DNA from: Acidimicrobiia bacterium
GTDB lineage: Bacteria > Actinomycetota > Acidimicrobiia > UBA2766
Reading direction: 5' to 3'
Length of the DNA: 64,000 nucleotides
Assembly: GCA_020850945.1 (NCBI GenBank)
Contig: JADZDR010000032.1
Span: forward strand, 62,001-126,000
Below are positions 10,208-50,975 of the stretch, in pieces. Every line of letters begins with the position of its first letter. The first letter of the stretch is position 1. Below the pieces are notes generated by a model. It was not told the DNA's origin and ran no database searches. It saw only the letters and a program-made list of their open reading frames with translations. Position numbers and translations under genes: made by a program.

Positions 10208-11899
10208 CTGAGCACCACGGAGACAGTTCAACTCGTCCACTTCCTGAGGGACCAGGCGGTCTGCACGCCCGAGCAGGCGGACCAGGCGCTCGCGGAGGAG
10301 TACTCGAATCCCGGCGCGCGGCCGATCACGGCGATCCTCGTCGGTGTCGGTGTGAGCGAGTCGGCCCTCCTCGCATCCCTCGCGAGTGCCGTGGGCATGG
10401 AGTTCTACGACCTGGGCGAGGTCGACATCGATCCGTCCGCTGTCGCCTTGGTGCCCGAGACGATGTGCCGACGCCTCGGCTGCCTGCCCATCGCCTACGA
10501 CGGCCGCACGCTCGTCGTGGCGATGTCCGATCCCACGAACGTCCTCGCCAAGGACGACCTGCGCGCGGTCACGCGCTCGGAGATCAGCGTCGTCCTCGCC
10601 ACACAGGAGGACATCGAGGGGGCGATCAACCGTTTCCACCGCATGGACGAGTCCTTCGACACGATCACGGAGGGCCTCGACGTCGAAGGTGGCATCGAAT
10701 CGGTAGAGGACATCGCCGGCAGTGAGATCGTCGACGAGGCACCCGTCGTCAAGCTCGTCAACCTCCTCATAACGCAGGCCGTCAACGACCGCGCATCCGA
10801 CATCCACGTCGAACCCCAGGAGAAGGACGTGCGCGTGCGGTACCGCATCGACGGAGTCCTGCACGAGGTGATGCGGTCACCCAAGACGATCCAGAACGGT
10901 GTCATCAGCCGTCTCAAGATCATGGCGGACCTCGACATCGCCGAACGCCGTGTCCCCCAGAGCGGCCGCATCTCGGTGAAGGTGGCCCACAGGGCGGTCG
11001 ACCTGCGTGTGGAGACGCTGCCGACAGTCCATGGCGAGAAGATCGTCATGCGGCTCATCGACAAGTCGGCCGGCCTCCTCGACATCAACGACATGGGGCT
11101 GTCGGAGACCGACATGGCGCGCTACAGGTGGGCGACGAGTCTGCCCTACGGTGCGATCATCGCCTCGGGACCGACGGGGTCGGGCAAGTCGACGACTCTC
11201 TACGCGAGCCTCAACCTCCTCAACGACGCGTCGCGCAACATCATCACGGTCGAGGACCCGGTCGAGCAGAAGATCGCCGGGCTCAACCAGGTGCAGGTGA
11301 ACACGAAGGCGGGCATGACCTTCGCGTCGGCGCTGCGCTCGATGTTGCGGGCCGACCCCGACGTCGTGATGGTCGGTGAGATGCGTGACAAGGAGACTGC
11401 CAAGATCGGGATCGAAGCCGCCCTCACCGGTCACCTCGTCCTTTCCACGATCCACACGAACGACGCTCCGTCGGTCATGACACGACTCATCGAGATGGGG
11501 GTCGAACCCTTCCTCGTCGCGAGCGCCATCGACTGCGTGATCGGCCAGCGCCTCGCCCGGCGTCTCTGCCTGAAGTGCAGGCAGTCCTACCAGCCGACCG
11601 TCGAGACTCTCGTCGAGGCGGGCTGGGAGGGAGCGGGGGATCTCGAGGAGATCCCCGCCATGTATCAGGCGGTCGGGTGCCAGGCCTGTGCCAAGACCGG
11701 ATACTCGGGCCGGATCGCGATCTTCGAGATCCTCCTCGTCACGGAGGAGATCGAGCGGCTCTGCGCCGAGCGCGTGAGCTCGGACGAGATCAAGCGGATC
11801 GCGATCGGCCAGGGCATGACGACACTGCGCCAGGACGCCCTCGGCAAGGCCGTGCAGGGGATCACGTCGATCGAGGAGGTCCTGCGTGTGACGGCGTGA
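10208..11899 (+). CDS. pilB: Type IV pilus extension ATPase PilB
   Basis: The hexameric motor that drives pilus polymerisation at the cytoplasmic face. The order is an N-terminal MshEN/T2SSE_N domain (residues about 1-150), then a GspE-type ATPase with GPTGSGKST (K327), GEMRD with E391 of Walker B, and a zinc motif of two CxxC pairs (C454/C457 and C491/C494). Length from CTG 10208 is 563 residues, as expected for PilB. Starting at GTG 10352 would cut 48 residues of the MshEN domain. It begins the pilus cluster but is separated from pilT by a palindrome-bracketed insertion. Confidence 0.92.
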   Translation: MSTTETVQLVHFLRDQAVCTPEQADQALAEEYSNPGARPITAILVGVGVSESALLASLASAVGMEFYDLGEVDIDPSAVALVPETMCRRLGCLPIAYDGRTLVVAMSDPTNVLAKDDLRAVTRSEISVVLATQEDIEGAINRFHRMDESFDTITEGLDVEGGIESVEDIAGSEIVDEAPVVKLVNLLITQAVNDRASDIHVEPQEKDVRVRYRIDGVLHEVMRSPKTIQNGVISRLKIMADLDIAERRVPQSGRISVKVAHRAVDLRVETLPTVHGEKIVMRLIDKSAGLLDINDMGLSETDMARYRWATSLPYGAIIASGPTGSGKSTTLYASLNLLNDASRNIITVEDPVEQKIAGLNQVQVNTKAGMTFASALRSMLRADPDVVMVGEMRDKETAKIGIEAALTGHLVLSTIHTNDAPSVMTRLIEMGVEPFLVASAIDCVIGQRLARRLCLKCRQSYQPTVETLVEAGWEGAGDLEEIPAMYQAVGCQACAKTGYSGRIAIFEILLVTEEIERLCAERVSSDEIKRIAIGQGMTTLRQDALGKAVQGITSIEEVLRVTA

Positions 11900-11905
11900 C
11901 CCGCA

Positions 11906-11955
11906 CCGACTGGGTACCTGAGCGGCGATATATCGCCGCTCAGGTACCCAGTCGG
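11906..11955. repeat. Perfect 50-bp palindrome, copy 1 of 2
   Basis: Every base from 11906 to 11955 pairs with its mirror base around the centre at 11930/11931. The half-core reads CTGGGTACCTGAGCGGCGAT and then A at the centre. The 42-bp core (11910-11951) is identical to that of copy 2 at 13764-13805. The four outer bases on each side (CCGA/TCGG) differ from copy 2 but still pair with each other. It starts six bases after the pilB stop. There is no T-run, so it is not a plain Rho-independent terminator. Confidence 0.95.
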
Positions 11956-13760: not shown

Positions 13761-13808
13761 TGTCTGGGTACCTGAGCGGCGATATATCGCCGCTCAGGTA
13801 CCCAGACA
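13761..13808. repeat. Perfect 48-bp palindrome, copy 2 of 2
   Basis: All bases from 13761 to 13808 are self-complementary around 13784/13785. The 42-bp core 13764-13805 is identical to 11910-11951. The outer three bases (TGT/ACA) differ from copy 1 (CGA/TCG in the same places) yet still pair. It ends 83 bases before pilT. Confidence 0.95.
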
Positions 13809-13891: not shown

Positions 13892-15577
13892 GTGTCGATC
13901 CAGACGGCGAGAAAGGGGCATCGTTTGCAGACGACAACATCCGGCCTCGCTCAGGCCCTGCGCGAGCGCCATGTGCTCGCGGACCAGGAGCTCGACACCT
14001 ATCTCCAGCGGGAGCAGATCGAGCAGATCCCGCTCGACCAGTTGCTCCTCCGCGACGGGCGTGTCTCCGAGAAGCAGCTCGCCGAGCTGCGCGCGGCCGA
14101 GCTCGGCCTGCCGTTCATCGATCTCGAGCTCGTGCAACCGGGTGCCGAGGCCGTCGCCCTCGTACCGGCCGACGTCATGCGCGCGCACCGTGCGCTGCCC
14201 CTGCACGTGAGCGAGGACGGTCTCTTCGTAGCCGTCGCCCATGCCGACTTCACGGAGGCTGCCCAAGCCGTCGCCCACGCCTCGAACCTGCCTGTACACG
14301 TCGCGCTCACGTCGGCGTCGGACCTGGAGGTGTTCCTCGGACGTGTCCTCGCCGACGCCCCGCGAACGGAATCGGTCCCGGCCGCAGCGCCACCGGTCCC
14401 GCCCGTCGCGGAAGCTGTGCCCGTGGCCGGCGGGGCGGGCGAGAGCGGCCTCATCGAGATGCCCACCATCCTCGAGTCCGACGCGGGCGAGGATGTGCAC
14501 GAGGTCACCTTCGAGCTCCACATCAACGACCTCCTCGAGAAGGTCCTCGAGGTCGGAGCCTCCGACTTGCATCTCACCGAGGGTGCACCCCCCGAGGTGC
14601 GCGTGCACGGCGACCTCATGCCCGTCCCCGGCTACGACGTGCTCGACGCCCAGACGCTGCGCCGCCTCATCTACGCCATCCTCACGCAGAAGCAGCGCGA
14701 GCGCTTCGAGGAGGACTGGGAGCTCGACCTGTCCCACCCCCTGCCCGGCAAAGCGCGCTTCCGCGTGAACCTGTTCGTGCAGAAGGGGTCGTTCGGGGCG
14801 GTGCTGCGCACGATCCCGGACCAGATCGTCCCGATCGAACAGCTCGGCCTCCCCAAGATCGTGCGGGAGTTCGCCGACATTCCCCGCGGCCTCGTCCTCG
14901 TCACCGGCCCCACGGGATCGGGCAAGTCGACGACCCTCGCCTCCGTCGTCGACATCGTGAACTCGACGAAGCCGGTCCACATCATGACCGTCGAGGACCC
15001 GATCGAGTTCCTCCACCACCACAAGCGGGCGATCGTGAACCAGCGCGAGATCGGCGAGGACACGAAGTCGTTCTCCAACGCCCTGCGTCACGTGTTGCGC
15101 CAGGACCCGGACGTGATCCTCGTCGGCGAGATGCGCGACCTCGAGACGATCCAGACCGCACTCACGGCGGCCGAGACCGGCCACCTCGTCTTTGCGACCC
15201 TCCACACGCAGGACGCACCCCAGTCCATCGACCGCGTGATCGACGTCTTCCCGCCCCACCAGCAGCAGCAGGTACGGGTCCAGCTCGCCACGTCACTCCA
15301 GGCGATCATGACACAGCAGCTCATCCGCACCTCGGATGCGCGGGGGCGGTGCGTCGCGACGGAGGTCATGGTGGCGACGCCCGCGATCCGCAACCTGATC
15401 CGGGAGGGAAAGATCTACCAGATCTACTCGGCGATGCAGGCCGGTGGTCAGCACGGCATGCAGACCATGGACCAGTCGCTCGCCGATCTCGTGAAACAGC
15501 GCCGCATCACCTACGACCTGGCGCTCGAACGGTGTGCCAACCAGACGGACCTGGCCCGGCTCTGCGGACGCATGTGA
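13892..15577 (+). CDS. pilT: Type IV pilus retraction ATPase PilT with extra N-terminal MshEN-like domain
   Basis: A 561-residue motor ATPase. Residues about 215-545 match PilT: GASDLHLTEG, GPTGSGKST (K345), GEMRD and the AIMTQQLI stretch typical of PilT rather than PilB; the zinc-binding CxxC pairs of PilB are absent. Residues about 15-160 form an MshEN/T2SSE_N-like region (LGLPFIDLEL, AHRALPLHVSEDGLFVAVA), followed by a Pro/Ala linker. Ordinary PilT is about 350 residues and lacks this region. The start is GTG 13892, with AAGGAAAGG about eight bases upstream. Retraction or motor-exchange function is inferred. Confidence 0.88.
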   Translation: MSIQTARKGHRLQTTTSGLAQALRERHVLADQELDTYLQREQIEQIPLDQLLLRDGRVSEKQLAELRAAELGLPFIDLELVQPGAEAVALVPADVMRAHRALPLHVSEDGLFVAVAHADFTEAAQAVAHASNLPVHVALTSASDLEVFLGRVLADAPRTESVPAAAPPVPPVAEAVPVAGGAGESGLIEMPTILESDAGEDVHEVTFELHINDLLEKVLEVGASDLHLTEGAPPEVRVHGDLMPVPGYDVLDAQTLRRLIYAILTQKQRERFEEDWELDLSHPLPGKARFRVNLFVQKGSFGAVLRTIPDQIVPIEQLGLPKIVREFADIPRGLVLVTGPTGSGKSTTLASVVDIVNSTKPVHIMTVEDPIEFLHHHKRAIVNQREIGEDTKSFSNALRHVLRQDPDVILVGEMRDLETIQTALTAAETGHLVFATLHTQDAPQSIDRVIDVFPPHQQQQVRVQLATSLQAIMTQQLIRTSDARGRCVATEVMVATPAIRNLIREGKIYQIYSAMQAGGQHGMQTMDQSLADLVKQRRITYDLALERCANQTDLARLCGRM

Positions 15578-15611: not shown

Positions 15612-16835
15612 ATGAGCGAGACGTTCAAGTACAAGGTGAGGGATCGGTCCGGTGCCGTCCTCGAGGGCGAGCTCGATGCCGACAACGTGTCCGTTGTCGC
15701 AGCCCGCCTCCGCCAGGAGGGCTACATCCCGATCGAGATCGACCGCAAGGGCTCGGGCGGCCTGCAGGCGGACCTCTCGATCCCGGGTATCACGGACCGC
15801 ATCAAGCTGAAGGACCTTGCCGTCTTCAGCCGCCAGTTCGCGACGATGATCAACTCCGGCCTCTCGCTGATCCGGGCGCTCGGCATCCTCGCCGAGCAGA
15901 CGGAGAACAAGCAGCTCGCCAAGATCATCGGTGAGGTGCGCCAGGACATCGAGACCGGCACGGGCCTCTCGGCTGCGCTCGCCAAGCACCCGAAGGCGTT
16001 CAACGACCTCTATGTGTCCATGGTGAAGGCGGGTGAGTCCGGCGGTGTGCTCGACTCCGTCCTCCTGCGCCTCGCCGACACGATGGAGAAGCAGGTCGCG
16101 CTGCGCCAGAAGGTGAAGTCGGCCATGACCTACCCGGTTATGGCGATGTCGCTGATCCTCCTCATCACGGCGGCGATGCTGATCTTCATCGTCCCCATGT
16201 TCGAGAACCTCTACAACTCGCTCGGCGGCACCCTGCCCCTGCCGACGCGGATCCTCATGGGTGTCTCGTCCTTCGTCGCCGGCCCCGGCGGCCTCGTGAT
16301 CTTCGCCCTCCTCGTCGGCGGCATCGTCTTCCTCGTGAAGTGGAACAAGACCGAGAACGGCAAGCGCGTCCTCGACCGGGTCAAGCTGCGCATCCCGGTC
16401 TTCGGTGCGGTCGTGCACAAGACGGCCCTCGCCCGCTTCGCCCGCACGCTCAGCGTCCTCCTCCGGTCGGGTGTCCCGATCCTCGAGGCGCTCGAGATCG
16501 TCTCGGACACCGTGAACAACAACGTGATGCGGGACGCCATCGAAGACGTGAAGCTCGCCGTGAAGCGAGGCGACAGCCTCGCCCGGCCCCTGACCGAGCA
16601 CGACGTGTTCCCACCGATGGTCGTGCAGATGATGGCCGTGGGTGAGGAGACGGGGGCGCTCGACACGATGCTCGAGAAGATCGCCGTGTTCTACGAGGGT
16701 GAGGTCGAGGCCCTCGTCCAGGCCCTCACGAGCCTCATCGAGCCCCTCCTCATCCTCGTCATGGGCCTCGCCGTGGGCGGAATGCTCATCGCCCTCTACA
16801 TGCCCATGTTCAACATCATCAACCTCATCCAGTGA
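15612..16835 (+). CDS. pilC: Type IV pilus inner-membrane platform protein PilC
   Basis: A 407-residue GspF/PilC-family protein on which the motors act. Two repeats of the GspF cytoplasmic domain (about 70-190 and 275-395) are each followed by hydrophobic segments, with membrane spans near 175-200, 225-250 and 380-400. The motifs FSRQFATMINSGLSL and LSVLLRSGVPILEAL are the paired signatures. ATG 15612 has GAGGGA upstream and lies 34 bases after pilT, so both probably share a transcript. Confidence 0.95.
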   Translation: MSETFKYKVRDRSGAVLEGELDADNVSVVAARLRQEGYIPIEIDRKGSGGLQADLSIPGITDRIKLKDLAVFSRQFATMINSGLSLIRALGILAEQTENKQLAKIIGEVRQDIETGTGLSAALAKHPKAFNDLYVSMVKAGESGGVLDSVLLRLADTMEKQVALRQKVKSAMTYPVMAMSLILLITAAMLIFIVPMFENLYNSLGGTLPLPTRILMGVSSFVAGPGGLVIFALLVGGIVFLVKWNKTENGKRVLDRVKLRIPVFGAVVHKTALARFARTLSVLLRSGVPILEALEIVSDTVNNNVMRDAIEDVKLAVKRGDSLARPLTEHDVFPPMVVQMMAVGEETGALDTMLEKIAVFYEGEVEALVQALTSLIEPLLILVMGLAVGGMLIALYMPMFNIINLIQ

Positions 16836-17007: not shown

Positions 17008-17493
17008 ATGACGAACCGGGCATCTCGAAACCGGGCATCTCGGGGGGACAGGGGATTCTCCCTCGTCGAGTTGATGGTGGTGATCCTCATCATCGGCATC
17101 CTCATCGGGATCGCGATCCCCGTCTGGTACTCCGTGCGCCAGCGCACGCAGGACAGGGCGGCGCAGTCCGAGCTGCGCACGGCAGCCGGCGCGCAGATGG
17201 CGTGGTACGGAGGGGCACAGATGTTCACGGCGAACCCGGTCGAGCTCGCCTCGATGGAGTCGGCGCTCGACTTCGTCGCCGCCCCCTCGACGGATCCCCA
17301 GGAAGTCAGCCTCTTCCTCGACCCGGTTGCGCCCTGGCCGGGCGCGACAGTGATCATGGGTTCACGGTCGAACACGGGTCGGTGCTTCTACCTGCGCCTC
17401 ACGCACGACAGCTCCCTCCGCTTCGGCTCGACGGGCTACCAGGCGGTATGTGACGTGAACGCCGCCGCCGCGGCCTGGACCGACTCGTGGTGA
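17008..17493 (+). CDS. Type IV prepilin-like protein (first of two)
   Basis: A 161-residue prepilin. A short basic leader ends in RGDRG, followed by FSLVELMVVILIIGILIGIA; PilD would cut after the Gly and methylate the Phe, and Glu5 of the mature protein is present. The globular part has two Cys (GRCFYL and YQAVCDV) able to form a C-terminal disulfide loop. GTG 17002 is an alternative start in frame. It could be the major or a minor pilin; the second prepilin is similar in size and is the one under riboswitch control. A GCCGATAT element lies at 16957-16964. Confidence 0.9.
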   Translation: MTNRASRNRASRGDRGFSLVELMVVILIIGILIGIAIPVWYSVRQRTQDRAAQSELRTAAGAQMAWYGGAQMFTANPVELASMESALDFVAAPSTDPQEVSLFLDPVAPWPGATVIMGSRSNTGRCFYLRLTHDSSLRFGSTGYQAVCDVNAAAAAWTDSW

Positions 17494-17494
17494 C

Positions 17495-17521
17495 GGTCGG
17501 GCGCCGGTAGGTCGCCCGACC
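17495..17521 (+). terminator. Hairpin after the first prepilin gene
   Basis: Arms GGTCGGGCG (17495-17503) and CGCCCGACC (17513-17521) pair perfectly around a nine-base loop, two bases after the stop codon. No T-run follows, so it may stabilise the 3' end of the message rather than end transcription by itself. Confidence 0.55.
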
Positions 17522-17538
17522 CAAATCGGTGTCCGACC

Positions 17539-17568
17539 TTCAAGTGCGGAGGTCAGGACGGCCGATAT
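17539..17568 (+). promoter_or_regulatory. Possible sigma-28/WhiG-type promoter of the second prepilin
   Basis: TTCAAG (17539-17544), 16 bases, GCCGATAT (17561-17568). The same layout precedes pilB. It lies about 30 bases upstream of the riboswitch, in the right place to start its transcript. Confidence 0.45.
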
Positions 17569-17600
17569 GCACGTAACAGAAGCAAGCGGCCTGGCCGGTC

Positions 17601-17706
17601 CAGTCAAAGGCACACTCGCAGCGATGCGGGGTCGCAAAGCCACGGGACTCACAGCGGCAGTCGATTGGCATTCGTTGTCCAGTCGCAACGAGTCCGCCGG
17701 GCTACC
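17601..17706 (+). ncRNA. Cyclic di-GMP-I (GEMM) riboswitch
   Basis: The hallmarks occur in the family order. AAAGGCACAC (17606-17615) is followed by a hairpin of ACTCGCA and TGCGGGGT closed by the GNRA tetraloop GCGA (17621-17624). Then comes the conserved GTCGCAAAGCC (17631-17641) with ACGGGACT. A second helix forms from GGACTC (17645-17650) with GAGTCC (17690-17695). The element closes with GCCGGGCTACC (17696-17706). The outer P1 helix is less clear. It lies in a 312-base leader that holds no gene and ends at the prepilin start 17806, so c-di-GMP binding should set prepilin expression. The direction of control cannot be told by eye. Confidence 0.85.
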
Positions 17707-17805
17707 TGGCCGGCGCATCCACCCGTGCGGTGGGACGTCTCCCAGTCAGGCATCACGGCCACCAGACGCTTGCGGACCAGCTACCGCAATCCACGGAGGT
17801 GGACC

Positions 17806-18279
17806 GTGTACAAGCGCCTTGCGGCGTTGAAGGACAAGGAAGAGGGATTCACGCTCATCGAGCTCATGGTCGTGGTCCTCATCATCGCCATCCTGATCGC
17901 CATCGCCATCCCGACCTTCCTCGGCGCCCGACAGCGTGCCCAGGACCGTGCCGCGCAGAGCGACATCAGAAACGCGTTCACGGCCGAGAAGACGCACTAC
18001 ACCGACACAGAGGCCTACACGGACGTGGGAGCGACGATCGACGCCATCGAGCCCTCGCTCACGTACCAGGACAACAGCCTCAACCCGCCGGCGAACACGG
18101 TCGGACTCGACCTCGGTGCGAGCGCACAGGAGGTCTGTGTCGTCAAGCAGTCCAACTCGGGCCAGTGGTTCGGTCTGAGGGACCAGGCCACGGGCGCCGG
18201 CTCCGGCACCACCTACTTCTCAGGTGCGGCTGCGCCGGGAGCGTGCAACGCTGCGACGTTCGCCCTGACCGAGTGGTGA
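17806..18279 (+). CDS. pilA: Type IV prepilin PilA (second; riboswitch-controlled)
   Basis: A 157-residue prepilin. The leader MYKRLAALKDKEEG is followed by FTLIELMVVVLIIAILIAIA; cleavage falls after the Gly and Glu5 is present. GARQRAQDRAAQSDIRNAFT continues the long N-terminal helix. Two Cys (EVCVVK and GACNAA) could form the C-terminal disulfide. The start is GTG 17806, with GGAGG six bases upstream. It is probably the major pilin, because it has its own promoter, a c-di-GMP riboswitch and a strong following hairpin. Confidence 0.93.
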   Translation: MYKRLAALKDKEEGFTLIELMVVVLIIAILIAIAIPTFLGARQRAQDRAAQSDIRNAFTAEKTHYTDTEAYTDVGATIDAIEPSLTYQDNSLNPPANTVGLDLGASAQEVCVVKQSNSGQWFGLRDQATGAGSGTTYFSGAAAPGACNAATFALTEW

Positions 18280-18413: not shown

Positions 18414-19226
18414 ATGCCGGCCACAACAGCGGACACCCTTGCCCTCGTCCTCGTGGGCGTTCTCGGCCTCGTCGTCGGGTCGTTCCTGAACGTCGTGATC
18501 GCGCGGGTTCCGGCGGGCGAGTCGATCGTGGCGCCCCCGTCAGCCTGCCCCGAGTGCAAGACGGAGATCAAGCCCTACGACAACATCCCCGTGCTCTCGT
18601 ACCTCATCCTGCGGGGCCGGTGCCGTAGTTGTGGTGCCCGCATCTCGGTCCAGTACCCGCTCGTCGAGGTAGGCTGCGCCGCCCTCTGGATAGTCGTATT
18701 CCTCCGTTTCGACGGCCTCACGTGGTCCTTTGTGCTCGCCGCCGTCCTCCTCGCCTCCCTCCTCGCCCTCGCCGTGGTCGACGCACAGACGTTCCGGCTC
18801 CCCAACGCGATCACTTACACGACGTTCGTGATGGGCCTCGTCCTCGTCGTGACAGCCTCGGCCGCCACCGGCGAATGGAATCGCCTCCGCGACGCCGTGA
18901 TATCCGCCGGGGCCGCATTCCTGCTCTTCTGGCTCATCGCCGCCGTCGGCGGGGCTGCCTTCGGCGAGGACGCGATGGGTTTCGGTGACGTGAAGCTCGC
19001 GGCCGTCCTCGGCCTCTATCTCGGCTGGCTCGGACCCCGCTTCGTCGTGATCGGCCTCTTCCTCGGCTTCCTCGTCGGTGCAGTGGCCGGCATCGCCCTC
19101 CGGGCTGCCGGCAGGAAGAAGAAGCGGGATCCCATCCCCTTCGGTGTGTTCCTCGCGATCGGCGCTTTCCTCGGCATGCTCGTCGCCGACCCCATCGCAG
19201 ATCTCTATCTGAGCGGCCTCCACTGA
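18414..19226 (+). CDS. pilD: Prepilin peptidase / N-methyltransferase PilD
   Basis: A 270-residue polytopic membrane protein that removes prepilin leaders and methylates the new N-terminus. It has the zinc-binding pairs CPEC and CRSC in the first cytoplasmic loop, and the two aspartates of the protease active site in VVDAQTFRLPN and GFGDVKL. About seven or eight hydrophobic segments are visible. The start is ATG 18414; TAGGGT lies eight bases upstream, so it may be leaderless. It would process both prepilins just upstream. Confidence 0.95.
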   Translation: MPATTADTLALVLVGVLGLVVGSFLNVVIARVPAGESIVAPPSACPECKTEIKPYDNIPVLSYLILRGRCRSCGARISVQYPLVEVGCAALWIVVFLRFDGLTWSFVLAAVLLASLLALAVVDAQTFRLPNAITYTTFVMGLVLVVTASAATGEWNRLRDAVISAGAAFLLFWLIAAVGGAAFGEDAMGFGDVKLAAVLGLYLGWLGPRFVVIGLFLGFLVGAVAGIALRAAGRKKKRDPIPFGVFLAIGAFLGMLVADPIADLYLSGLH

Positions 19227-19380: not shown

Positions 19381-20451
19381 ATGGGTCGCAGCGGTGTCAT
19401 CGGACTCGATATCGGAAGCAGCGCAGTACGCGCAGCAGAGGTGGACATCAAGCGGAATCCACCTGTGCTCACACGTTTCGGGCAGGTCATGCTGCCACCC
19501 GGAGCGGTGGCCGACGGGGAGATCATCGAGGAGCAGGCTGTCGGCGAGACGATCGCGGATCTCTGGAAGCGCGTCGGGTTCCGTTCGAGAAACGTGATCG
19601 CCGGCGTCGCGAACCAGCGTGTGATCGTGCGTCAGATCGAGATGCCCTACATGGAGGAACCAGAGCTCGAGTCGAGCCTCCCCTTCCAGGTGCAGGAGCA
19701 GCTCCCCATCCCGGTCGACGAGGCCATCCTCGACTTCCAGGTGCTCGAGGAGATCGTGACTCCCGACAACGAGCGGCTGATCCGCCTCCTCCTCGTGGCC
19801 GCGCAGCGGGACATGATCGAGAGCCTCCTGCGCACCCTGGATCATGCCGGGCTGAACGCCTCGATCGTCGACCTCGTCCCCCTCGCCCTCCTCCGTACAC
19901 TCGGAGAACCGGGCCAGTCGTCGTTCGAGACGGGTTACGGCGGTTTCGGCGAAGGCGCCGAGGCGATCGTCGACATCGGGGCCGGTGTCACGAACATCGT
20001 CGTGCACGAGAACGGCATGCCCCGCTTCGTGCGCATCCTCGTGTCAGGCGGCCAGCACGTAACCGACGCCCTCGCCACGGCACTGCAGACATCGCCCGAG
20101 GAAGCCGAGCTCCTCAAGCGTCAGGCCGCCTTCGGCGGAGTACCCGAGGAGGCCACCCGCATCATCGAGGACCGCACGAACAGCGTCCTCGAGGAGGTGC
20201 GGGGCTCCCTCGACTACTACAGCGCCCAGCCCGAGTCCACGGCCCTCTCCCGGGTCGTGCTCACGGGCGGCGGTTCGTGCATCGAGGACCTCGCGCCCCG
20301 GCTCGCGACGGCGACCGGAGTCGCGACCGAATACGGACACCCGTTGGCGTCGGTCAGTCTCGGTCCGATCGGGCTCACCCCCGAACAGCTCGCCGAGGCG
20401 GAGCCGCTCATCTCGGTCCCCGTCGGTCTCGCCCTGGGAGAGAGGCAATGA
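19381..20451 (+). CDS. pilM: Type IV pilus assembly protein PilM
   Basis: A 356-residue actin-like (FtsA-fold) cytoplasmic protein. GLDIGSSAVRAAEV is the phosphate-1 motif, VDIGAGVTNIVVHENG phosphate-2 and VVLTGGGSCIEDLAPRLA the adenosine motif. PilM binds the N-terminal tail of PilN and links the motor to the inner-membrane ring. The start is ATG 19381 with GGGAGG upstream. It overlaps pilN by four bases (ATGA), making a pilMNO operon. Confidence 0.95.
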   Translation: MGRSGVIGLDIGSSAVRAAEVDIKRNPPVLTRFGQVMLPPGAVADGEIIEEQAVGETIADLWKRVGFRSRNVIAGVANQRVIVRQIEMPYMEEPELESSLPFQVQEQLPIPVDEAILDFQVLEEIVTPDNERLIRLLLVAAQRDMIESLLRTLDHAGLNASIVDLVPLALLRTLGEPGQSSFETGYGGFGEGAEAIVDIGAGVTNIVVHENGMPRFVRILVSGGQHVTDALATALQTSPEEAELLKRQAAFGGVPEEATRIIEDRTNSVLEEVRGSLDYYSAQPESTALSRVVLTGGGSCIEDLAPRLATATGVATEYGHPLASVSLGPIGLTPEQLAEAEPLISVPVGLALGERQ

Positions 20452-21341
20452 CAGCAACACAGACGTCGCCCGCCACCACGCGGCCCGATACCCGACCACC
20501 CGAGTACACGGAGATCAAGCCGGCGGACGGGGGCCTGCGGACGGCCACTCCCGTGAAGCCACGTCGCATCAATCTCCTGCCCCCCGAGATCGGGCGGCAA
20601 CGGGCGCAGGCCAAGATCAAGTTCTACGTGTTCGGCGGTGTGGGCCTGCTCGTCGTCCTCCTCGCCGCCCTGTACGTGCTCAAGACGATGCAGATCTCGG
20701 CGGCGCAGGAGGAGCTGGCGGACCAGAAGACCAAGAACGAGGCCCTGCAGTCCCAGGTCGACGACCCCGCCCTGCAGGCGGTCGTGGCGAAGCAGGCGGA
20801 CGCGCAGGCGAGGGCGGGGGCACTGAGTGGTGTCGTGACCGGCGAGGTGTCGCTGCCTGCCCTCCTCAACCAGCTCTCGATCGTGATTCCCGACGGCACG
20901 TGGCTGGCATCCCTCAACTTCACCGGTGGAGGCGGCGCTCAGGCCGGTGCGGGGTCGACGGGCACATCGGCCGGGGCATCAGCCGCTCCGACCCAACAGG
21001 CAGGTGCAGCCGGGGCGCCGCCCGCTGAGGCTGCAGCGGGACCGATCGGCACCCTGCAGGTGAACGGGTCGGGTCTCGGCAACCAGCAGATGGAATGCTC
21101 CCACGACGTCTCGGCGATCTGGCTGCAGACGATGCAGGCGTGGCCCGCAATATCGAAGGTGTGGGTGTCGACCTCGACGAAGTCGGGGGAGGGGCTCTGC
21201 AACGTGGTCGACTTCACGTCCGACATGGAGCTGAGCTCGACCCTCGAGACCGGACGGTCGGGCCGGTTCGCGAGCTCGGCCGGGCCGGCGGCACCGACTT
21301 CGCCCGGGACGGCATCGACGGGGACGGGAGGGTCGCAGTGA
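20448..21341 (+). CDS. pilN: Type IV pilus assembly protein PilN
   Basis: A 297-residue bitopic membrane protein. The cytoplasmic tail contains RINLLPPEI, the conserved PilM-binding INLLP motif (about residues 43-51). One membrane segment follows (about 63-82), then a coiled coil and a periplasmic domain. A Gly/Ala/Ser/Thr-rich insertion (about 162-200) splits the periplasmic domain, and a second low-complexity stretch forms the C-terminus. Two Cys (MECSHD and GLCNVV) may pair outside the membrane. It overlaps both neighbours. Confidence 0.9.
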   Translation: MTATQTSPATTRPDTRPPEYTEIKPADGGLRTATPVKPRRINLLPPEIGRQRAQAKIKFYVFGGVGLLVVLLAALYVLKTMQISAAQEELADQKTKNEALQSQVDDPALQAVVAKQADAQARAGALSGVVTGEVSLPALLNQLSIVIPDGTWLASLNFTGGGGAQAGAGSTGTSAGASAAPTQQAGAAGAPPAEAAAGPIGTLQVNGSGLGNQQMECSHDVSAIWLQTMQAWPAISKVWVSTSTKSGEGLCNVVDFTSDMELSSTLETGRSGRFASSAGPAAPTSPGTASTGTGGSQ

Positions 21342-21967
21342 AGACCAAAGCCCTCTCCATCGTGGGTGTCCTCGTGGCGCTCATCATCGCTCTCGCCTGG
21401 TTCATGTTCCTCTACAAGCCTGCAAGCGACAAGCTCGGCAAGGTCAACACCGAGATCGAGGACGCCAAGGCCGAGGAGATCACCCTCCAAGGCGAGCTCG
21501 CCTCCCTGAAGGAGCTCGCCGCGCAGGAGGCGACGATCGACAGCAGCCTCGCCTCCCTGCAGCAGGCGGCGCCGGACGTCGCCGACGAACAGGGCCTCAT
21601 CGCCGCCCTGCAGAAGACGGCGTACGACAACAATGTCGAGCTGTCCAGCGTCACGGTGTCGGAGCCGACCCCGGGTGGCGACATCTCGACGCTGAGCTTC
21701 CAGCTCGAGGCGAGTGGGAGCTTCCGTGACGTGACGAACTTCTTCGCCGCCCTCCTCGACCCGGCCGTGATGCCACGAGTCGTGACGTTCGACCAGATGC
21801 AGGTGACACCGGCCGAGACCGGCACGGGGGACGGACCGACCATCAACATCGTGTCCGTGTCCCTGTCGGGTCGGGCGTTCACGACAGAGGGTGCGGGTGC
21901 TGCGCCTACACAGGGCGCGGCCCCGACCGAGGCGGGCGCGACCGCGACCGCACCCAGCGGACAGTGA
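21338..21967 (+). CDS. pilO: Type IV pilus assembly protein PilO
   Basis: A 209-residue bitopic protein with one membrane segment (about 7-26), a coiled coil (about 30-80) and a ferredoxin-like periplasmic domain (about 85-185) containing LSFQLEASGSFRDVTNFFAA. PilO pairs with PilN in the alignment ring. GTG 21338 overlaps the pilN stop by four bases. The tail is Ala/Thr/Gly-rich. Confidence 0.9.
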   Translation: MKTKALSIVGVLVALIIALAWFMFLYKPASDKLGKVNTEIEDAKAEEITLQGELASLKELAAQEATIDSSLASLQQAAPDVADEQGLIAALQKTAYDNNVELSSVTVSEPTPGGDISTLSFQLEASGSFRDVTNFFAALLDPAVMPRVVTFDQMQVTPAETGTGDGPTINIVSVSLSGRAFTTEGAGAAPTQGAAPTEAGATATAPSGQ

Positions 21968-49991: not shown

Positions 49992-50975
49992 GTGAGTGAC
50001 GAGGCGCACGGCCACGTGCAAGACGGCCTGATGCTCGATTTCGAGCGTGAGCGCGTCCTGATCGTGGACGACGACGTCGACATCTGCCGGTACGTCCAGG
50101 TGAACCTGGTCCTCGACGGTTACCTCGTCGACATCGCCAACGACGGGGAGGAAGGCCTACGCAAGGCCGTCGATCTTCAACCCGATCTCGTGCTCCTCGA
50201 CGTGATGATGCCCGGCCTCGACGGCACGGAGGTGTGTCGGCGCATGCGGGAGGATCCCCGCACCCTCAACACACCGATCATCTTCCTGACCGCCAAGTCG
50301 CAGTCCACGGACAAGATCACCGGCCTCTCGGCCGGCGCAGACGACTACATCGCGAAGCCGTTCGATCCGCCCGAGCTCACGGCACGGGTGCGATCCGCTC
50401 TGAGACGCAACAAGGCGATGCGTGACGTCTCGCCGTTGACAGGCCTGCCCGGCAACACGTCTGTCACCGCTGAGCTCGAGCGGCGCGTCCTGGACCGGGC
50501 GACGCCGTTCGCCGTCTGCTGGTGTGATCTCGACGACTTCAAGGCGTTCAACGACCACTACGGCTTCCTGCGCGGCGACGAGGCCATCCAGCTCACCGCC
50601 CGGGTCCTCACGTCTGCCCTCGACGTGCATCCGTGGCCGCACAACATGGCCGGTCACATCGGCGGCGACGACTTCGTCCTCGTGTGCGATCCGGACCAGG
50701 TCGAGAGCCTCTGCCGCATGGCAACCGACATGTTCGACGAGAGGGTTCTCGACCTGTACGACTCCGACGACGTGGCACAGGGCTACATCGAGGTGTCGGA
50801 CCGCCGTGGCGAGAGCAGCAGCTTCCCCGTGATGGGTCTGTCCATCGGTGTCGCGACTTCACTCGTGCGGTCGTTCAACTCGCGTGCCGAGTTGTCCGAA
50901 GTTGCTACAGAGATGAAGGCGTTCGCGAAAGCGGCGCCCGGCTCCGCGTACGAGATCGACCGCCGGCGGCAGTGA
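49992..50975 (+). CDS. Response regulator with GGDEF-family output domain
   Basis: 327 residues. The receiver (about 20-138) has the DDD acid pocket, phospho-acceptor D70 in LLDVMMPG and the conserved Lys in AKPFDP. The GGDEF-type domain (about 155-320) has DLDDFKAFNDHYGF and the signature G224-G225-D226-D227-F228. The second acidic position is Asp instead of Glu, so diguanylate cyclase activity is uncertain. It is the only c-di-GMP-related enzyme seen here, alongside a c-di-GMP riboswitch at 17601-17706. Confidence 0.88.
   Translation: MSDEAHGHVQDGLMLDFERERVLIVDDDVDICRYVQVNLVLDGYLVDIANDGEEGLRKAVDLQPDLVLLDVMMPGLDGTEVCRRMREDPRTLNTPIIFLTAKSQSTDKITGLSAGADDYIAKPFDPPELTARVRSALRRNKAMRDVSPLTGLPGNTSVTAELERRVLDRATPFAVCWCDLDDFKAFNDHYGFLRGDEAIQLTARVLTSALDVHPWPHNMAGHIGGDDFVLVCDPDQVESLCRMATDMFDERVLDLYDSDDVAQGYIEVSDRRGESSSFPVMGLSIGVATSLVRSFNSRAELSEVATEMKAFAKAAPGSAYEIDRRRQ

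Follow-up and report, generated by a model that had tools for sequence, protein, structure and literature searches.

Known systems and the pilA leader

Signalling by cyclic di-GMP (c-di-GMP) is usually treated one receptor at a time. In Streptomyces and Rubrobacter, the sigma factor WhiG is kept inactive by RsiG at high c-di-GMP. Schumacher and colleagues sought WhiG promoters in Rubrobacter with a −35 element TAAA and a −10 element GCCGATAA; three of the 12 confirmed ones lie in the type IV pilus cluster. These pili are under RsiG-WhiG control from the same promoter type, and riboswitches are not mentioned (PMC8325347). Riboswitches ahead of pilus genes have been described for C. difficile and Geobacter. 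Here, we analyse the leader of a type IV prepilin gene, pilA, in 64,000 nucleotides of an uncultured Acidimicrobiia bacterium (contig JADZDR010000032.1; this whole stretch is called the window). Judged from its sequence, pilA appears to be under a two-tier c-di-GMP gate, with initiation controlled through RsiG and WhiG and the leader through a c-di-GMP-I riboswitch. Ligand binding, the use of WhiG and the output are what we infer, and the probability of this reading is estimated at about 0.68.

The locus shares features with each of the closest systems. As in the RF01051 (c-di-GMP-I, GEMM) family, there is a full-model match above the gathering score, the contact bases are canonical and the gene behind the element, which is part of its 5′ leader, encodes a surface appendage. 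It departs from the family by its extended P3, the covarying outer helix (P0), the lack of a U-tract terminator and the WhiG-type promoter immediately before it. With Rubrobacter (PMC8325347), the locus shares WhiG, RsiG and the occurrence of sigma-28-type promoters before genes of type IV pili; here, RsiG has twin motifs, the −35 element reads TCAAG in place of TAAA, and a c-di-GMP riboswitch is part of the transcript. The pilA1 leader of C. difficile also has a c-di-GMP riboswitch before a major type IV pilin. However, that element, Cdi-2-4, is a class II aptamer with a terminator-based ON output in another phylum, and no c-di-GMP-controlled sigma factor is known at its promoter (PMC6366702). 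In Geobacter, a GEMM-I aptamer likewise stands ahead of pilus genes, but it precedes pilM, binds cyclic GMP-AMP (cGAMP) and is a terminator-based ON switch (PMC9262584). Bc1 of Bacillus thuringiensis resembles the window in the order of c-di-GMP-I aptamer and long leader and differs in having two intrinsic terminators, where none was found here (PMC11218506). The riboswitch family and the RsiG-WhiG control of Rubrobacter pili are thus known already. What appears to be new is that a probable RsiG-WhiG promoter and a c-di-GMP riboswitch are combined on the same transcript, and that this combination is frequent in the phylum; we found no description of either in the open-licence literature.

The aptamer

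The leader and its gene comprise the following features:

17540..17567, + strand: sigma-28/WhiG-type promoter, −35 TCAAG at 17540–17544, 17-nucleotide spacer, −10 (GG)CCGATA at 17562–17567 (sequence motif, comparative enrichment)
17582..17588, + strand: 5′ strand of P0, GCAAGCG (covariation, pairing tests)
17592..17597, + strand: UGGCCG, competing helix that pairs with 17756–17761 instead of the outer half of P1 (single-sequence folding)
17594..17603, + strand: 5′ strand of P1, GCCGGUCCAG (sequence, folding)
17599..17709, + strand: c-di-GMP-I (GEMM-I) aptamer, RF01051, with a long extended P3 (covariance-model match)
17706..17714, + strand: 3′ strand of P1, CUGGCCGGC (sequence, folding)
17767..17773, + strand: 3′ strand of P0, CGCUUGC, 32 nucleotides ahead of the start codon (covariation, pairing tests)
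17795..17799, + strand: Shine-Dalgarno sequence GGAGG (sequence)
17806..18279, + strand: pilA, type IV prepilin with a GFTLIE N-methylation motif and a GTG start (Pfam N_methyl, orthologues)

The Rfam scan of the 64-kb window gave a single match, RF01051 at 17599–17709 on the + strand, with 51.6 bits (gathering cut-off 35 bits), an E value of 3.5e-07 and model positions 1–87, that is, the full model. An earlier note, made from the letters alone, had read a GEMM core at this place and proposed the covariance-model search as its check. The score confirms the reading, and the GCGA-capped P2 hairpin, CGCAAAGCC, the GGACTC/GAGTCC helix and GCCGGGCTACC are all present. The GNRA-capped P2 and P3 expected of RF01051 are in place. 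P1 closes the aptamer with 9 base pairs and one bulge (17594–17603/17706–17714). The ligand-contact bases, read from the covariance-model alignments, are canonical: G at 17609, A at 17636 and C at 17705, which we take to be G20, A47 and C92 in Vc2 numbering. The variant c-di-GMP-I-GGC (RF03167) was rejected: its score of 51.9 bits does not reach the 59 bits required for it, and the A47 position holds A where the RF03167 consensus has G. The fold of the whole leader as a single sequence is not more stable than that of shuffles (z −1.0), and such folding was therefore not used as evidence for the aptamer. The genome (3.9 Mb, 97 contigs) has one RF01051 copy only, upstream of pilA, and a search of 14 control genomes gave no match. 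The RNA at 17599–17709, within the 5′ leader of the main prepilin gene, is most likely a c-di-GMP-I riboswitch with c-di-GMP as its presumed ligand. As an aptamer, it is a further member of a known riboswitch family.

RF01051 was present in 34 of 395 Acidimicrobiia genomes sampled, with 61 matches in total. In 23 Acidimicrobiia genomes of many families, the aptamer lies 70–162 nucleotides ahead of the GFTLIE codons of the orthologous prepilin, and the prepilin N-termini are nearly identical to that of the window pilA. The other c-di-GMP-I aptamers of the class (38 elements, L002–L060) stand mostly before secreted proteins, of which several look CAP-like by eye; up to 7 copies occur in some genomes. 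Across the phylum, 155 of 397 sampled genomes had c-di-GMP-I matches, so a GEMM element in actinobacteria is by itself unremarkable. The earlier note had placed GEMM riboswitches before pilins in other phyla. This precedent exists, but the statement undersells the element's presence within this phylum.

Promoter and regulators

The window promoter, TCAAG-N17-CCGATAT, is of the flagellar type (−35 TAAA-like, −10 GCCGATAA-like) and stands before a pilus gene, with its end 31 nucleotides from the aptamer. The motif places the transcription start of pilA at about 17574, so that the transcribed leader is probably ~233 nucleotides long. The 312-base leader of the earlier note holds as the intergenic gap (17494–17805 has 312 nucleotides), not as the probable transcript.

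Support for the promoter is comparative. TCAA(G) or a close variant (including TAAAG), followed after 16–19 nucleotides by CGAT, occurs in 21 of the 23 GEMM-prepilin leaders and ends ~14–37 nucleotides before the aptamer. The strict form, TCAAG-N15–18-CCGAT, was found 24 times in 76 distinct prepilin upstream regions, compared with a mean of 0.12 (maximum 1) in dinucleotide-preserving shuffles; these regions come from related organisms, and the counts are not independent events. On the opposite strand of the same regions the strict site occurred 0 times, as did the reversed pattern. Several Acidimicrobiia have tandem prepilin genes (L193, L209, L174, L168), in some cases with an own TCAAG/TAAAG-CCGAT promoter for each copy. 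Two more strict TCAAG-CCGATA sites of the genome (L128 on C22 and L127 on C20) lie ahead of a kinase-like gene and a membrane-protein gene.

Both regulators are encoded. The WhiG orthologue (L123, 5130–5987, minus strand) matches WhiG of S. venezuelae (6pfv) with 366 bits (1.2e-108); its best FliA match has 187 bits. RsiG (L114, 1387–1923) matches PF22802 with 103 bits in two stretches and RsiG of S. venezuelae (complex 6pfj) at 1.5e-18. Its twin motifs, ETELSYSRRLLQGRID and EREVSRLRRILHERLD, both follow the pattern E(X)3S(X)2R(X)3[Q/H](X)3D, with the residues E-S-R-Q-D and E-S-R-H-D. A change from Q to H in one motif is reported to be frequent, in that case in the first motif (PMC8325347); in this RsiG it is found in the second. 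RsiG was present in 22 of the 23 GEMM-prepilin genomes, compared with 246 of 395 in the class, a gap of which a part may reflect genome size.

In the proposed gate, the leader would be transcribed from the sigma-WhiG promoter at 17540–17567. At high c-di-GMP, RsiG would hold WhiG and pilA transcription would stop; transcription would take place at low c-di-GMP. The pilA transcript would then meet a second c-di-GMP test in the riboswitch. With an OFF output the two tiers would agree, and high c-di-GMP would halt pilin synthesis twice, at the start of transcription and again on existing messages. The earlier note mentions neither the WhiG-type promoter nor the pair of RsiG and WhiG nor the covarying outer helix; with them, the locus has probably two stacked c-di-GMP links in place of one.

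Promoter and aptamer as a recurrent pair

Promoters without an aptamer are located 80–171 nucleotides ahead of the GFTLIE codons, save for two at 294 and 315; where an aptamer lies in between, the distance is 192–306 nucleotides. In a sister genus of the same family (G004), the orthologous prepilin (64% identity) is preceded by TCAAG-N17-CCGATAAC, and its leader gave no Rfam match even at E 1. As the spacing differs with and without aptamer and G004 keeps the promoter alone, the riboswitch looks like a module of ~150 nucleotides that entered or left the space between a WhiG-type promoter already in place and the ribosome-binding site. One leader without a GEMM match (L160, G141) combines a WhiG-type promoter with GCGAG/CTCGC ends that flank a GEMM-like remnant, perhaps a decayed aptamer.

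The pairing extends beyond the class. Among 89 RF01051 elements sampled across the phylum, from other classes (29 top matches and 60 fetched), 34 have a T[CA]AAG-like/CCGATA-like promoter within 150 nucleotides upstream, 7–57 nucleotides before the aptamer; shuffles gave 0.3 (maximum 3). The strict form was found 31 times, compared with 0.02 in shuffles and 0 on the opposite strand. Behind several of these pairs, too, there is a prepilin (GFTLIELMVVILIIGILVAIAVPVF). Some of the pairs have a U-tract terminator after the aptamer. As the window leader lacks one on its strand, the same pairing of promoter and aptamer is combined with different expression platforms. On balance, the sequences speak slightly for a recurrent two-tier design in Actinomycetota, in which putatively RsiG-gated promoters of the WhiG class would drive c-di-GMP-I leaders of pilins and other secreted proteins. 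One messenger would control the start and the continuation of the message.

Outer helix and switch output

P0 encloses the aptamer; it pairs the beginning of the transcript with a site ~24–46 nucleotides before the start codon. In an alignment of 20 long leaders, anchored by hand, its nine pairs had a covariation of 0.321; shuffles gave 0.169, with none of 500 reaching the observed value, and a shift by 1–3 columns gave no more than 0.122. Cells changed on both sides numbered 20 versus 10.2. The longest helix between both P0 regions was 6.1, compared with 5.1 for shuffled 5′ segments (sd 0.21). Permutation tests of the pairing gave p 0.04 and 0.05. These are weak because most leaders have the GCGAG/CUCGC core in common, and the covariation count is the stronger evidence. 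The window's own family suggested that the 3′ strand of P0 pairs alternately with the 5′ end and with the region of the start codon, but as a general rule this found no support (permutation p 0.17).

Either the outer half of P1 or an extension of P0 (17592–17597/17756–17761) can form, but not both, and the two folds have near-equal energy (−110.1 and −109.2 kcal/mol). In these models, the choice between them is a plausible site of ligand action. We lean slightly towards an OFF output, because class I switches of known output are often OFF, as in C. difficile (PMC6366702), and because OFF agrees with the first tier.

Alternative readings

The strongest competitor is an ON riboswitch, which would set the tiers against each other. 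A transcript made at low c-di-GMP would be expressed only above a threshold, as in a band-pass or timing device. The folding results are compatible with this, and both the class II riboswitch of C. difficile pilA1 (PMC6366702) and the cGAMP switch of Geobacter pilM (PMC9262584) are ON switches. On the other hand, the class I switches of C. difficile are all OFF (PMC6366702). In some pilin leaders of other classes, the terminator is compatible with a formed aptamer, as in an OFF switch, although the differences are small. Opposed tiers are a tentative second choice.

Several observations weigh against the two-tier gate as a whole. A sister species of the same genus (G016) has a degenerate promoter site only. 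The strict pattern is not enriched in the genome itself, with 5 sites versus 4 for the reversed control, which makes the case for the promoter comparative, not genomic. RsiG was not found in one genome that has the leader (G010). Folding showed equal accessibility of the Shine-Dalgarno sequence in bound-like and unbound-like folds, without a consistent effect, and a scan of the window leader for U-tract terminators found none on the + strand. The genome also encodes a second WhiG-like sigma factor (C64, 215 bits), whose best PDB match is again WhiG (177 bits). The user of the promoter may therefore not be WhiG.

This last point leads to a single c-di-GMP input: an ordinary c-di-GMP-I riboswitch behind a real CCGATA promoter that is read by another sigma-28-type factor outside RsiG control. 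Sigma-28 factors have their promoter consensus in common (PMC8325347). The clear WhiG and the twin-motif RsiG in the genome, together with the presence of RsiG in nearly all genomes with this leader, make this reading unlikely. Even less probable is an aptamer that has decayed or does not respond and is retained as a structural 5′ leader, for instance to stabilize the mRNA. A non-responding GEMM-I is known, Bc1 of B. thuringiensis (PMC11218506), and the RF01051 score of the window is below that of most elements of the class; however, nothing is lost at the ligand-contact positions, in the GNRA loop or in the P2/P3 core. The outer helix, moreover, is kept by covariation.

An A at the G20 position favours cGAMP as ligand. 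Some Geobacter GEMM-I pilin switches bind cGAMP (PMC9262584), but with G at this position and 14 GGDEF domains in the genome, counted irrespective of cGAMP-making type, cGAMP instead of c-di-GMP is highly improbable here.

The pilus cluster

The genes around the leader are those of a type IV pilus:

10352..11899, + strand: PilB-like extension ATPase with a degenerate MshEN domain, frame open from 10160 (Pfam, motif check)
13892..15577, + strand: PilT-like ATPase with a degenerate N-terminal MshEN domain (Pfam, motif check)
15612..16835, + strand: PilC-like platform protein (Pfam)
17050..17493, + strand: upstream minor prepilin, stop at 17493; the coordinates give the stretch scanned (Pfam N_methyl)
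18414..19226, + strand: PilD prepilin peptidase (Pfam)
19381..20451, + strand: PilM (Pfam)
21338..21967, + strand: PilO (Pfam)

An aptamer within an actinobacterial pilus operon, as first noted from the letters, is thus in agreement with Pfam, which places the genes from PilB-like to PilO around 17599–17709.

The MshEN domains of PilB and PilT were considered as a third c-di-GMP input. MshEN is a c-di-GMP receptor with the binding motif RLGxx(L/V/I)(L/V/I)xxG...LxxxLxxQ (PMC5013675). Despite the Pfam domain match, the best windows of both proteins keep 6 of 11 conserved positions, and the binding RLG and Gln are missing. With these residues lost, the two ATPases were not counted as c-di-GMP inputs. 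A protein with a response regulator and a GGDEF domain (REC, GGDDF motif), one of the 14 GGDEF domains of the genome, is encoded at 50433–50711, ~32 kb downstream of pilA. A perfect palindrome of ~38 bp, GGGTACCTGAGCGGCGATATATCGCCGCTCAGGTACCC, occurs twice between pilB and pilT (11912–11949 and 13766–13803, the full reading being the second copy) with a chance expectation of 0. It is possibly a dispersed palindromic repeat or a regulator site.

Significance

An anti-sigma protein and an RNA aptamer, each an independent receptor of c-di-GMP, appear to be stacked on one transcript, and their pairing is frequent in sequence data, with 34 of 89 sampled c-di-GMP-I elements behind a WhiG-type promoter. 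If true, the pilA leader would offer a case, open to direct test, in which a single messenger gates twice, in a coherent or an opposed manner. The RsiG-WhiG regulon would then extend to the pili of Acidimicrobiia, and there would be a simple route to predict RsiG-WhiG targets.
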